Positions 2,990 through 6,046 of a stretch of DNA of 64,000 bases are shown here, in pieces. The DNA comes from Aquimarina sp. ERC-38. Its GTDB lineage: Bacteria > Bacteroidota > Bacteroidia > Flavobacteriales > Flavobacteriaceae. The translations under genes and the position numbers were made by a program. The first letter of the stretch is position 1, and every line of letters begins with the position of its first letter. The notes beneath the pieces were generated by a model that was given only the letters and a program-made list of their open reading frames with translations, was not told the DNA's origin and made no database searches. The stretch lies in the NCBI RefSeq assembly GCF_026222555.1, contig NZ_CP098511.1:3639501-3703500 (forward strand), in the 5' to 3' direction.

Positions 2990-3847
2990 TTATAAAACCA
3001 TCTTCTCAATTGGGCAAACCAGAATCCCCTCTGCCCCGGCTTGTTTTAATTCATCCAGAATTTCCCAAAACCTATTTTTTTCTACTACGGTATGTATCGA
3101 ACTCCACCCCTTTTCGGCTAATGGTAATACTGTTGGACTTCGCATCCCCGGTAAAATCTTCACAATTTGATCAATATTCTCATTGGGTGCATTTAATAAT
3201 ACATATTTAGAAGCTCTTGCTTTTAAAACAGACTGAATCCTAAACTGTAATTTCTCCAACAATTGCTTGTTTTCCGAATCAATTTTAGGAGATACTGCCA
3301 GTACCGCCTCAGAAGTTAACATTACTTCTACTTCCTTTAAATTATTTTTAAACAACGTACTCCCACTAGAAACTATATCGCAAATGGCATCTGCTAACCC
3401 AATATTCGGAGCAATTTCTACCGAACCCGAAATTTGATGTAACTCAGCTTTTATCCCTTTTTTCTCCAAGTACTGATTTACCGTGTTTGGGTAGGATGTT
3501 GCAATTTTTTTACCGTCCAGATCTTTAATGGAATGGTATTCAAACTCTTTTGGTACCGCTAGAGAGACTTTACATTTAGAAAAATTTAACCGTTCAGCAA
3601 TACTAATATCTTCTCCTTTTTCGACTAAAACATTTTCTCCGATAATAGCAATATCAACTACGCCATCACGTAGATATTGAGGAATATCACCATTTCGTAA
3701 AAACATAACTTCCATTGGAAAGTTTCGGGTGGCTGCTTTAAGCTGGTCTTTCCCATTATCAATTGAAATTCCGCAATCTTTTAAAATCTGAACCGAATCT
3801 TCGTTCAGCCTGCCACTTTTTTGAATGGCAATTTTAATTTTTGACAT
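2990..3847 (-). CDS. hisG: ATP phosphoribosyltransferase, long form
   Basis: First committed enzyme of histidine synthesis: condenses ATP and PRPP to phosphoribosyl-ATP. The 285-residue length fits the long HisG type, with a catalytic part (about 1-210) and a C-terminal ACT-like regulatory domain that binds histidine (about 210-285). Visible motifs include IAIQKSGRLNEDS at the N-terminus, GVVDIAIIGENV near 61-72, and the loop around DIVSSGSTL near 157-165 that binds the PRPP phosphate. It is the first structural gene of the operon, 126 bases downstream of the attenuator terminator. Confidence 0.96.
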   Translation of the reverse strand: MSKIKIAIQKSGRLNEDSVQILKDCGISIDNGKDQLKAATRNFPMEVMFLRNGDIPQYLRDGVVDIAIIGENVLVEKGEDISIAERLNFSKCKVSLAVPKEFEYHSIKDLDGKKIATSYPNTVNQYLEKKGIKAELHQISGSVEIAPNIGLADAICDIVSSGSTLFKNNLKEVEVMLTSEAVLAVSPKIDSENKQLLEKLQFRIQSVLKARASKYVLLNAPNENIDQIVKILPGMRSPTVLPLAEKGWSSIHTVVEKNRFWEILDELKQAGAEGILVCPIEKMVL

Positions 3848-3972
3848 GTATGTTTAATTTGTGTCTAAGCCTTTTTTACAACAAGTTTGAACTACATTTA
3901 AAGTCCTTACCTGAGCAGAGTCTATTTGTAAAAATCAACTACTGCGTTTCGTTTGTACAAACAGGTTCTCAT

Positions 3973-4006
3973 TAAAAAAACCCGTTTGATAGCTCAAACG
4001 GGTTTT
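3973..4006 (-). terminator. Intrinsic terminator of the his attenuator
   Basis: On the minus strand a perfect 13-base-pair stem (arms at 3994-4006 and 3977-3989, loop at 3990-3993) is followed by an unbroken T run. The GC core of the stem is CCCG/CGGG. It lies between the leader peptide and hisG, as expected for a premature terminator rather than the end of another gene. Confidence 0.85.
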
Positions 4007-4037
4007 AAAATATGATTACTTTTTACGCATATCTCTT

Positions 4038-4094
4038 TTACCTCGCCTGAACGATTCCGTAAAAATGATGATGATGTAAAAAGATAAAATTCAT
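4038..4094 (-). CDS. hisL: his operon leader peptide
   Basis: An 18-codon ORF reads MNFIFLHHHHFYGIVQAR and stops with TAA. Codons 7-10 are four consecutive CAT histidine codons, the sensing element of a his leader. Codons 15-18 overlap the proposed antiterminator arm. The ORF lies just upstream of an intrinsic terminator and hisG. I use the hisL symbol by analogy of role, since the sequence is not otherwise like the enterobacterial leader. Confidence 0.75.
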   Translation of the reverse strand: MNFIFLHHHHFYGIVQAR

Positions 4095-4110
4095 TTTCTT
4101 ATTTTCACTG

Positions 4111-4208
4111 CGAATGTATAAAAATAAATTGAATTTCTAAATTACTTTTAAATTTTACTTTTTAGATATTTATTGTTGCACTTCCGTTGACTTTTGTTAC
4201 CAAACTTA
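4111..4208 (-). promoter_or_regulatory. Candidate -7 boxes for the his leader transcript
   Basis: Two minus-strand matches to TAnnTTTG lie upstream of the leader: TACATTCG at 4111-4118 (7 of 8) and TAAGTTTG at 4201-4208 (exact). Neither has a TTG at 17-23 bases upstream, so the promoter is not settled. The first would give a very short 5' leader, the second about 100 bases. Confidence 0.3.
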
Positions 4209-4267
4209 AACCTGTATTCACTTTCATTTAAAAACAGTAGATTTACTTTAAGTTATAAATTGTTTAT

Positions 4268-6046
4268 ATGTCATTATCAGTATTAGATTGGGGTATCATT
4301 GCTTCCTTTTTTATCATTTTTGCTATTATCGGAATTAAGGTATCCAAACAATCCGGAAAAAACGCGCAGGAATTTTTTCTTTCCGGACGTAATATGCCTT
4401 GGTGGTTGTTAGGTATTTCCATGGTTGCCACCACTTTTTCAGCAGATACCCCTAATCTGGTCACTGATATAATTCGGCAAAACGGAATTTCTGGTAATTG
4501 GGTTTGGTGGGCTTTTTTACTTACGGGGATGCTCACTGTTTTTGTATATGCAAAATTGTGGAGACGTTCTGAAGTTTTAACGGATTTGGAATTCTATGAA
4601 ATACGCTATAGTGGTAAAGCTGCTGCTTTTTTAAGAGGTTTTCGAGCCATCTATTTAGGAGTTTTTTTTAACGTAATGATTATGGCTTCGGTTTGCCTGG
4701 CCGCCATAAAAATCGGCGGAATCCTTTTTGGATTGCAACCCTGGGAGTGTGTCACCTATGCGTCTATCATTACTGTGCTCTATAGTGCTTTGGGCGGATT
4801 ACGAGGGGTCATATTTACCGATTTTCTACAGTTTATCGTAGCCATGGTAGGTTCTATCTGGGCGGCGTACTACTTAGTTAACTTACCGGAAATCGGAGGA
4901 TTACAACAACTATTAACCCATGATAAAGTGGCGAATAAATTAAACTTTCTACCGGACTTTAAAGATACAAAAACCCTGATTCCGTTGTTAGTAATTCCCT
5001 TGGCGGTACAGTGGTGGAGCGTTTGGTATCCGGGTGCCGAACCCGGTGGCGGGGGTTATATTGCTCAAAGAATGCTATCGGCTAAAGATGAAAAACATGC
5101 GGTAGGTGCTACATTATTATTTAACATTGCGCATTACGCATTACGACCCTGGCCCTGGATTTTAATTGCGCTAGCATCCCTGGTTGCTTTTCCGGAATTG
5201 AGTACGATACAGGCGGCGTTTCCGGAAGTAAATGCTTCCATCATAGGACATGATTTGGCTTATCCCGCTATGTTAACGAAACTACCTAGCGGATTATTAG
5301 GTATCGTGGCTGCTTCGTTAATTGCAGCATTTATGAGTACCATCTCAACGCATTTAAATTGGGGTTCTTCTTATATCGCCATTGACTTTTACAAACGTTT
5401 TGTAAATCCAAATAGTGAAGAAAAAACCCTGGTCAATGTAGGAAGGCTAAGTACCGTTTTGTTGATGGTATTTGCAGCGCTTCTTGCTTTGGTTTTAGAA
5501 AGTGCACTAAGTACGTTTAATATTTTATTACAAATTGGTGCCGGAACCGGATTGATTTTTATTTTACGTTGGTTCTGGTGGCGTATCAATGCTTATAGCG
5601 AAATCACCGGAATGATTGTTTCTTTTCTATTTGCCGTATATTTTGAATTTGTACACGAAGCAATTTTTGGTAGTCGGATGGAAAATTACCAGGAATTAAT
5701 TATTGGAGTAATTTTTACTACCCTGTCCTGGATTGTAGTTACCCTCCTCACCCCTCCTACCGAAAATTTGGTGTTACTGGAATTTTACAAAAAAGTAAAA
5801 CCATATGGTATGGGGTGGAATGGTTTTAAAAAAATAGTAGCGGCTCAAACGGAAGCTAAACTGGAAGAAAGTCCGGATCAATTTACTATAGATTTAGCAT
5901 CTATGTTACTGGGAGTATTACTGGTCTATTGTGCCCTTTTTGCTACAGGATACTTTATTTATGGCAACTGGATTGGTACCTTAGTTTTAAGTACGGTAAC
6001 CGCATTAGCGATTGTATTGTTGATTCGGATCCAGAAAAGCAGGTAA
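4268..6046 (+). CDS. Sodium:solute symporter (SSS family)
   Basis: A 592-residue inner-membrane transporter with about 13-15 hydrophobic segments. The N-terminus shows the SSS pattern: a first helix, then a conserved loop with EFFLSGRNMPWW near residues 37-48 and the second helix with GISMVATTFSADTPN, where the sodium site is formed. The substrate cannot be read from the sequence. The nearby GH116/sulfatase cassette suggests, without proving, uptake of a sugar or sugar derivative. It is divergent from the his operon and is followed by a palindromic terminator. Confidence 0.88.
   Translation: MSLSVLDWGIIASFFIIFAIIGIKVSKQSGKNAQEFFLSGRNMPWWLLGISMVATTFSADTPNLVTDIIRQNGISGNWVWWAFLLTGMLTVFVYAKLWRRSEVLTDLEFYEIRYSGKAAAFLRGFRAIYLGVFFNVMIMASVCLAAIKIGGILFGLQPWECVTYASIITVLYSALGGLRGVIFTDFLQFIVAMVGSIWAAYYLVNLPEIGGLQQLLTHDKVANKLNFLPDFKDTKTLIPLLVIPLAVQWWSVWYPGAEPGGGGYIAQRMLSAKDEKHAVGATLLFNIAHYALRPWPWILIALASLVAFPELSTIQAAFPEVNASIIGHDLAYPAMLTKLPSGLLGIVAASLIAAFMSTISTHLNWGSSYIAIDFYKRFVNPNSEEKTLVNVGRLSTVLLMVFAALLALVLESALSTFNILLQIGAGTGLIFILRWFWWRINAYSEITGMIVSFLFAVYFEFVHEAIFGSRMENYQELIIGVIFTTLSWIVVTLLTPPTENLVLLEFYKKVKPYGMGWNGFKKIVAAQTEAKLEESPDQFTIDLASMLLGVLLVYCALFATGYFIYGNWIGTLVLSTVTALAIVLLIRIQKSR

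Follow-up and report, generated by a model that had tools for sequence, protein, structure and literature searches.

The 64,000-nucleotide (nt) stretch of the Aquimarina sp. ERC-38 genome analysed here (contig NZ_CP098511.1, positions 3,639,501 to 3,703,500; in the following, the window) contains an ordinary, very well conserved three-helix attenuator of the trp/his type in front of the histidine biosynthesis (his) operon. Judging from the sequence and its conservation, we are highly confident that a ribosome-mediated transcription attenuator, a principle known for a long time, controls this operon. The leader, the terminator, three alternative helices, their spacing and their conservation can all be read from the DNA of the window and its relatives.

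A his leader with terminator and antiterminator

A leader open reading frame (ORF) with four consecutive CAT codons, a terminator stem of 13 perfect pairs (AAAACCCGTTTGA/TCAAACGGGTTTT) with a T tract, and hisG downstream were all found as claimed in a preliminary description of the sequence (Table 1). An intrinsic terminator lies between the leader and the first structural gene, and the distance from the leader stop to hisG, which includes this terminator, is 190 nt in the window and 88–219 nt in the other distinct loci. The preliminary description had also placed the antiterminator arm within the last leader codons. Pairing by hand bears this out, as TCAGGCG-A-GG and CC-CGTTTGA form nine pairs with one bulged A, and the antiterminator helix in the computed fold is the hand-paired helix plus one pair. 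The region 3960–4110 has a minimum free energy (MFE) z-score of -3.89, with 1 of 200 shuffles being equally good. From this score and from the conservation of the His run at hisG it is clear that the arrangement of leader and terminator is beyond chance.

Table 1. Features of the his attenuator and the adjoining genes (window positions).
Feature	Position	Strand	Basis or remark
Putative -7 promoter element TACATTCG	4118-4111	-	Bacteroidota consensus TAnnTTTG, one mismatch
Leader ORF MNFIFLHHHHFYGIVQAR (then stop), 18 sense codons	4094-4038	-	ATG 4094-4092, stop TAA 4040-4038
Arm 1 of the 1:2 (pause/protector) hairpin, includes the His codons	4083-4059	-	MFE fold and covariation
Sensing site, four consecutive His codons (CAT)	4076-4065	-
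Arm 2, whole	4050-4019	-	folds and conservation
Arm 2, antiterminator part TCAGGCGAGG, last leader codons, pairs with arm 3	4050-4041	-
Arm 2, part pairing with arm 1, GGTAAAAGAGATATGCGTAAAAAG	4042-4019	-
Arm 3, 3' side of antiterminator and 5' side of terminator	4014-3993	-	core CCCGTTTGAG at 4002-3993
Arm 4, 3' side of terminator	3989-3977	-	13 pairs with 4006-3994
T tract, intrinsic terminator	3980-3974	-	sequence
hisG, ATP phosphoribosyltransferase, first structural gene	3847-2990	-	NCBIfam TIGR00070, 192.3 bits
hisD, histidinol dehydrogenase	2855-1572	-	TIGR00069

Conservation of the His-codon leader

hisG loci were gathered by protein searches of whole genomes and named contigs. We used the best 30 of 43 genomes, the best 80 of 557 stretches and the best 30 of 335 genomes; these lists overlap and amount to 138 loci, 120 of them distinct in the upstream region and 116 distinct across the leader-terminator segment. 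By title or kinship they are mostly members of the family Flavobacteriaceae, and three are titled only 'Bacteroidia bacterium'. All 138 loci (120 distinct) have an ORF that starts with ATG 138–273 nt before hisG and contains three or more His codons in a row, i.e. a putative short leader with a run of codons for the end product. Within the same 900-nt upstream stretches, an unrelated short His-rich ORF occurs in 5 of the 120 distinct loci (L004, L015, L024, L105 and L111).

Addition of 42 further family-level leaders to the 116 gave a set of 158 distinct family leaders. Their His runs comprise three (76 leaders), four (78), five (2) or six (2) codons, with 525 CAT and 37 CAC codons overall. 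These synonymous changes, together with length changes by whole codons, argue that the His run is translated. A model built without Aquimarina sequences recovered the window leader as the best match in its genome (78.7 bits). The runner-up, at 34.3 bits, is a plain terminator behind a tRNA-like sequence and was discarded.

A constant arm with two drifting partners

Pairing and covariation were counted in two alignments. Alignment A1 holds all 37 Aquimarina-like sequences, and alignment A2 holds 52 of the 78 distinct non-Aquimarina sequences (Maribacter, Zobellia, Muricauda and others); the other 26, in which a fourth His codon or another difference in length occurs, were removed ahead of the covariation counts and the building of the model. 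The core of arm 3, CCCGTTTGAG, is identical in 145 of the 158 distinct leaders. Arm 2 drifts mostly between CAGGCG and CAAGCG with its pairing to arm 3 maintained, and the core arm 2:arm 3 pairing, which drifts between A-U and G-U, is kept in 95.6% (A1) and 96.7% (A2) of the cells. Arm 4 drifts mainly between TCAAACGGG (104 leaders) and TCAAGCGGG (38 leaders), again with pairing maintained; the ten core terminator pairs that were counted are kept in 100% of the cells, both in the 37 sequences of A1 and in the 52 of A2. A frozen arm 3 with two drifting partners is the pattern that would be expected of a segment with two alternative partners.

In 6 of the 158 leaders arm 3 reads ACCGTTTGAG, and arm 4 is altered to match (TCAAGCGGT in five, TCAAACGGT in one); a matching change in arm 2 (GCGAGT or GCCAGT) was seen by eye in L227 and L232 only. 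A further set of variants concerns the reading frame. The first codon of arm 2 has changed from CAG to TAG in 3 of the 116 distinct leaders (L052 from Kriegella, L056 and L058 from Maribacter) and from CAA to TAA in L231. In these four the leader stops at the start of arm 2, yet the downstream GCGAGG or GCGAAC is retained, which shows arm 2 to be conserved as RNA and not as peptide.

The pause hairpin

In the MFE fold of the window, pairing of CUUUUUAC and the His-codon region with GGUAAAAGAGAUAUGCGUAAAAAG, around the leader stop and downstream of it, is already present. The same helix covaries in both alignments. In A1 the 1:2 helix has 82.2% paired cells and two-sided changes in 9 of 19 pairs (mean of 6.0 in the shuffles, 4 of 500 reaching 9), with a covariation score of 0.187 compared with 0.123 in the shuffles (0 of 500 as high) and 0.089 in the best slid version. 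The corresponding values in A2 are 90.4% paired cells, two-sided changes in 7 of 14 pairs (mean of 4.3, 11 of 500 reaching 7) and a score of 0.293 compared with 0.204 (0 of 500 as high) and at most 0.180 in slid versions; since the shuffles leave relatedness in place, the figures for both alignments are strong but are not probabilities. By eye, the arms occur in Aquimarina as CUUAUAC:GUAUAAG, CUUUUAC:GUAAAAG and CUAUACAU:AUGUAUAG, and elsewhere in the family as UUUAUUCAAU:AUUGAAUAAA. When the distinct leaders were folded without a ribosome, at least six pairs spanned the His run in 116 of 116, a count that does not include the identity of the helix. Covariation in two sets of relatives thus supports the existence of a 1:2 pause or protector hairpin whose formation would exclude the antiterminator.

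Spacing and simulated folding states

Counted from the first base of the last His codon, the Gln codon at the start of arm 2 lies 18 nt downstream in 113 of the 116 distinct leaders. L025 fits this spacing by eye despite an altered Gln codon, L082 has 21 nt with CAA replacing a fourth His codon, and L030, in which arm 2 is lost, is an exception. Further exceptions in the family are L225, L226 and L231, each with six His codons. From this pattern it follows that the 3' end of the His run varies less than its 5' end. A ribosome covers about 12–13 nt past the start of the A site. If it stalled at the last His codon, arm 2 would remain just outside its footprint, whereas at the stop codon it would cover this arm.

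We simulated the ribosome states by masked folding of the 116 distinct leaders. The terminator forms in all 116, both without a ribosome and with one placed at the stop. If the ribosome instead sits on the last His codon and the transcript ends at arm 3, at least seven arm 2:arm 3 pairs form, again in all 116. Geometry and simulated masking therefore agree in predicting that a stalled ribosome would free arm 2 and a ribosome at the stop would cover it.

From this layout we infer how the leader would be translated, where the ribosome would stall, in which order the helices would fold and how the operon would respond to histidine. RNA polymerase would start just upstream of the leader ORF. With ample charged tRNA-His, the ribosome would reach the stop codon at 4038 and cover arm 2, arm 3 would pair with arm 4, and transcription would end before hisG. 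When charged tRNA-His is short, the ribosome would be held up at the CAT codons, its front edge not quite reaching arm 2. As arm 1 would then be masked, arm 2 would pair with arm 3 once this is made, and the polymerase would read into hisG, hisD and the rest of the operon. In the absence of translation, or before a ribosome has loaded, arms 1 and 2 would form the pause or protector hairpin and the terminator would still form.

Occurrence beyond the family

To the family data we added the upstream regions of hisG from 60 further genomes, hand-picked with one or a few per family; the 20 in-family regions among them come mostly from the lower end of the 335-genome list. Under a looser leader rule (at least three His in five residues; ATG, GTG or TTG start), a His-rich short ORF precedes hisG in 51 of the 60 genomes. 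It is present in all 20 from the family, all 9 from other families of the order and all 11 from the class outside the order; of the 20 from the remainder of the phylum, 11 have it. Several of the distant ORFs are long or lack an ATG and may be spurious (L193, L194, L205, L208, L209, L212 and L213). A terminator-like hairpin was seen in 43 of the 51 regions and none was found in 8; two of the 43, those of L194 and L213, are not credible, with energies weaker than -1 kcal/mol.

Outside the family the arms differ much in sequence, for example GCGGTAGGCTG with AGGCTTACCGC in L186 and GCGCCGGA with CCCCGGCG in L206. As a control, 1408 partners were exchanged between families over the whole set. The 23 non-family loci pair their own arms 2 and 3 with a mean of -9.8 kcal/mol, compared with -6.0 kcal/mol for swapped partners. 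The antiterminator excludes the terminator through the shared arm 3, and the exchange speaks clearly for this in 13 of the 23 loci, where at most two of about 41 swaps were as good as the native partner. The same layout thus seems to have been kept outside the family while the sequences changed, clearly so in about half of the distant loci. A match to the model at E ≤ 0.1 was present in 222 of 395 genomes of the order; we do not use this number as a census, and many of the weak matches are probably bare terminators.

Weighing of alternative explanations

The preliminary description comprised two statements on the mechanism. That the element is a ribosome-mediated attenuator is by far the best explanation. 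The second statement, that there is no separate pause hairpin and that antitermination is set only by the ribosome covering its own last codons, does not hold. Such a two-arm switch would account for the overlap of arm 2 with the last leader codons, which a ribosome at the stop would cover; it is contradicted by the 1:2 hairpin, which is present in the MFE fold and covaries in two sets of relatives, and the pairs that span the His run in all no-ribosome folds, whatever helix they belong to, also stand against it. We regard it as very improbable. It is hardly conceivable, moreover, that the leader acts mainly as an upstream ORF through reinitiation or translational coupling onto hisG, with the hairpin as a plain terminator upstream of the operon. 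ORFs near genes have been proposed to raise translation by reinitiation, and the available text on this proposal gives 11–14 bp for Bacteroidetes (PMC4833913), whereas the leader stop and hisG are much further apart in the window and in all other loci, with a terminator standing between them. Reinitiation would also leave the His runs, the 1:2 covariation and the 18-nt spacing unexplained. The chances are equally slight that a protein, a small RNA or an unrecognised riboswitch or T-box switches the terminator and that the His ORF is incidental. Weak Rfam matches to PyrR (31.7 bits, gathering score 54) and to an L10 leader (28.4 bits, gathering score 44) would fit such a switch, but no Rfam family reaches its threshold, and the His run stays in frame with CAC/CAT changes across the 158 distinct leaders. 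We rejected both matches, which are probably due to the terminator and to A/T runs.

Several observations weigh against ribosome-mediated attenuation by three helices. Within the family there is next to no covariation in the 2:3 and 3:4 helices, as arm 3 is almost constant. A pair at alignment columns 57–96 is missing from 12 of the 52 A2 sequences, and L030 lacks the usual arm 2 sequence. In the slide control, in which the unslid version is favoured as the helices were named after reading the same sequences, A1 slid by +3 still gives 7 two-sided pairs and 27 cells (observed, 9 pairs and 36 cells) and A2 slid by +2 still gives 6 pairs and 29 cells (observed, 7 pairs and 36 cells). Of the 50 added loci that were examined, one, L157, shows no more than two His codons side by side, with Arg next (leader MINSSAHHRFYTIAQAR); it lies outside the set of 158. 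Among the 23 non-family loci, at least three swapped partners were as good in 10, with no support in L188, L207 and L213, of which L188 and L213 were outright failures, and intermediate results in the other seven. Finally, when arm 4 is added to the simulation with a stalled ribosome, the antiterminator prevails at equilibrium in only 10 of 116 leaders, so that the switch must be kinetic and decided while arm 3 is the newest RNA. The window leader is among the 10, but its terminator forms if the segment stops with the last base of arm 4, which means that the result depends on where the segment is cut. The same calculation also yields the terminator for the his leader of E. coli K-12, which is itself a thoroughly studied attenuator.

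As observations that would speak against an attenuator, the preliminary description had named the lack of a conserved His run and of compensating changes in close relatives, or a transcription start behind the leader. The His run is conserved, compensating changes occur in the 1:2 helix, and the predicted promoter lies upstream of the leader.

Predicted promoter and 5' end of the leader transcript

From the putative -7 element, the transcription start in the window is predicted at about 4106–4105, approximately 11–12 nt before the AUG. In 33 of the 37 Aquimarina-like leaders TAnnTT[TC]G ends 13–24 nt before the ATG (about 0.0015 expected per position per sequence); the window has this motif as TACATTCG. 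Among 79 other distinct leaders, taken from L050–L138 and including sister genera, TAnnTTT[GAC] ends 7 nt (62 leaders) or 8 nt (12 leaders) before the ATG in 74 (about 0.01 expected per position); the pattern was picked after inspecting the sequences, and the genera are related. Of these 74 motifs, 47 end in A and not in the nearly invariant G, and TAnnTT[TC]G is found there in only 28 of 79. Promoters of F. johnsoniae have 4–5 nt from the -7 element to the start, according to the portion of PMC6847099 available. With a motif 7–8 nt before the AUG, mRNAs of the sister genera would consequently begin 2–4 nt before the AUG, and we predict them to be near-leaderless. In F. psychrophilum, leaderless mRNAs make up only 5.5% of those with mapped starts in the accessible part of PMC9723704. 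Some Maribacter leaders have an upstream in-frame ATG, which would fall inside such a promoter and be untranscribed.

As a tentative idea, which we consider possible but rather doubtful, these data may reflect a variant of his attenuation particular to Bacteroidota. It would dispense with a ribosome-binding leader, the ribosome loading at the 5' end and the 18 nt serving as a ruler that sets the switch, and the layout, with changing arms, would be ancestral to much of the phylum.

Genomic context

The genome is 4.43 Mb in size, and its nearest named relatives by hisG, among the matches listed, are Aquimarina species. Beyond the window the his operon runs on with hisC-like, hisB, hisH-like, hisA, hisF and hisIE genes (G000:C1:3631500-3641500, same genome); the downstream his genes were named from Pfam domains and gene order. 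Three non-his genes on the same strand lie inside the operon and encode a DUF3667 protein, a 23S-rRNA-intervening-sequence protein and a DinB-like protein (G000:C1:3631500-3641500 and window 1405–527). The spacer between terminator and hisG (3972–3848) exceeds that of the other Aquimarina loci by about 70 nt, and the palindrome GTTTGTACAAAC lies within it. We considered a repeat as the origin of this long spacer and rejected it; a search with 123 nt gave no full second copy in the genome and only two further matches of 16–28 nt. On the plus strand, a divergent gene of the sodium/solute symporter type (4268–6046) starts about 170 nt from the leader; it matches TIGR00813 with 147.9 bits, under the cut-off of 184.

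Relation to known attenuators

Like the window element, E. coli hisL (RF00514) has a His-codon leader peptide, a terminator and the his operon downstream, and its stalled-ribosome fold likewise pairs right behind the ribosome. It differs in having seven His codons instead of four and in its arm, which starts 3 nt after the stop; the arm in the window starts 10 nt before the end of the sense codons. The claim of a more compact arrangement was accordingly too strong, as the arm is shifted relative to E. coli hisL without any new principle. The E. coli his leader also has more alternative helices than the three of the window. With 28.0 bits against a gathering score of 49, the window is not a sequence member of RF00514. 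The E. coli trp attenuator shows the same layout and order of 1:2, 2:3 and 3:4 helices, with Trp instead of His codons; the window has no evident Shine-Dalgarno context. Arm 2 of the trp attenuator begins after the leader stop, whereas that of the window begins before it. A comparative study of attenuators by Vitreschak and colleagues from 2004 reportedly mentions Bacteroidetes/Chlorobi.

Bacteroid-trp RNA (RF01692) is likewise a leader element of Bacteroidota; it belongs to another operon and has another sequence. It did not reach the threshold and is absent from the Rfam matches to window positions 3700–4300 up to E = 10. The same genome has a Bacteroid-trp match over threshold (60.4 bits) at L177 (G000:C1:2405077-2405193, minus strand), with a trpE-like ORF downstream. 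This Trp attenuator has the leader MKNTLQNIWWWSFEIQNS, followed by a stop codon, and a terminator with GGCTTGTC/GACAAGCC. By eye, a pairing is possible between CGTGAG, which spans the leader stop, and CTCACG in the region of the terminator loop, and this arm likewise seems to overlap the end of the leader ORF. Bacteroid-trp is listed in PMC2864571 and likened to the E. coli trp leader in PMC6414381, as far as the available text of both goes.

In 2010 leader-peptide systems were described as known only from Proteobacteria and Actinobacteria, and Firmicutes were added (PMC2965389, available text). That attenuation is little described in the phylum, as the preliminary description held, is overstated in view of the Rfam family Bacteroid-trp and of two papers, both available in part. 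In the mapping of F. psychrophilum transcripts, strong clues point to attenuation by leader peptides in front of amino-acid operons, and a hisG 5' element is named that is conserved in other Flavobacteriaceae and has no Rfam hit (PMC9723704). In B. thetaiotaomicron, long 5' untranslated regions contain small ORFs reminiscent of attenuating leader peptides, histidine being unmentioned in the text at hand (PMC7366714). The F. psychrophilum element is very probably the same as the window leader, for which the accessible part of PMC9723704 gives no structure, covariation or mechanism. The system is thus not wholly new for the phylum, since a hisG 5' element and flavobacterial leader-peptide attenuation are in print in that source. 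In the literature searched, which included few subscription journals and no supplementary files, we found neither the 1:2 hairpin nor the 18-nt spacing of the his leader described, nor its near-leaderless start.

Biological implications

Of continuing interest are the reach of the attenuator over the phylum, its constant spacing and a leader that may be near-leaderless. The window element falls under no Rfam family at threshold. Being compact and easily scored, it could enter annotation pipelines and serve as a reporter of histidine starvation in flavobacteria. For attenuation by a leader peptide to work, the ribosome must stay close behind RNA polymerase. A his attenuator in much of Bacteroidota would therefore be indirect evidence for transcription-translation coupling, at least at transcript starts, in a phylum that lacks Shine-Dalgarno initiation. 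Should the mRNAs prove to be near-leaderless, the his leader would also offer a simple natural system for initiation on leaderless mRNAs.
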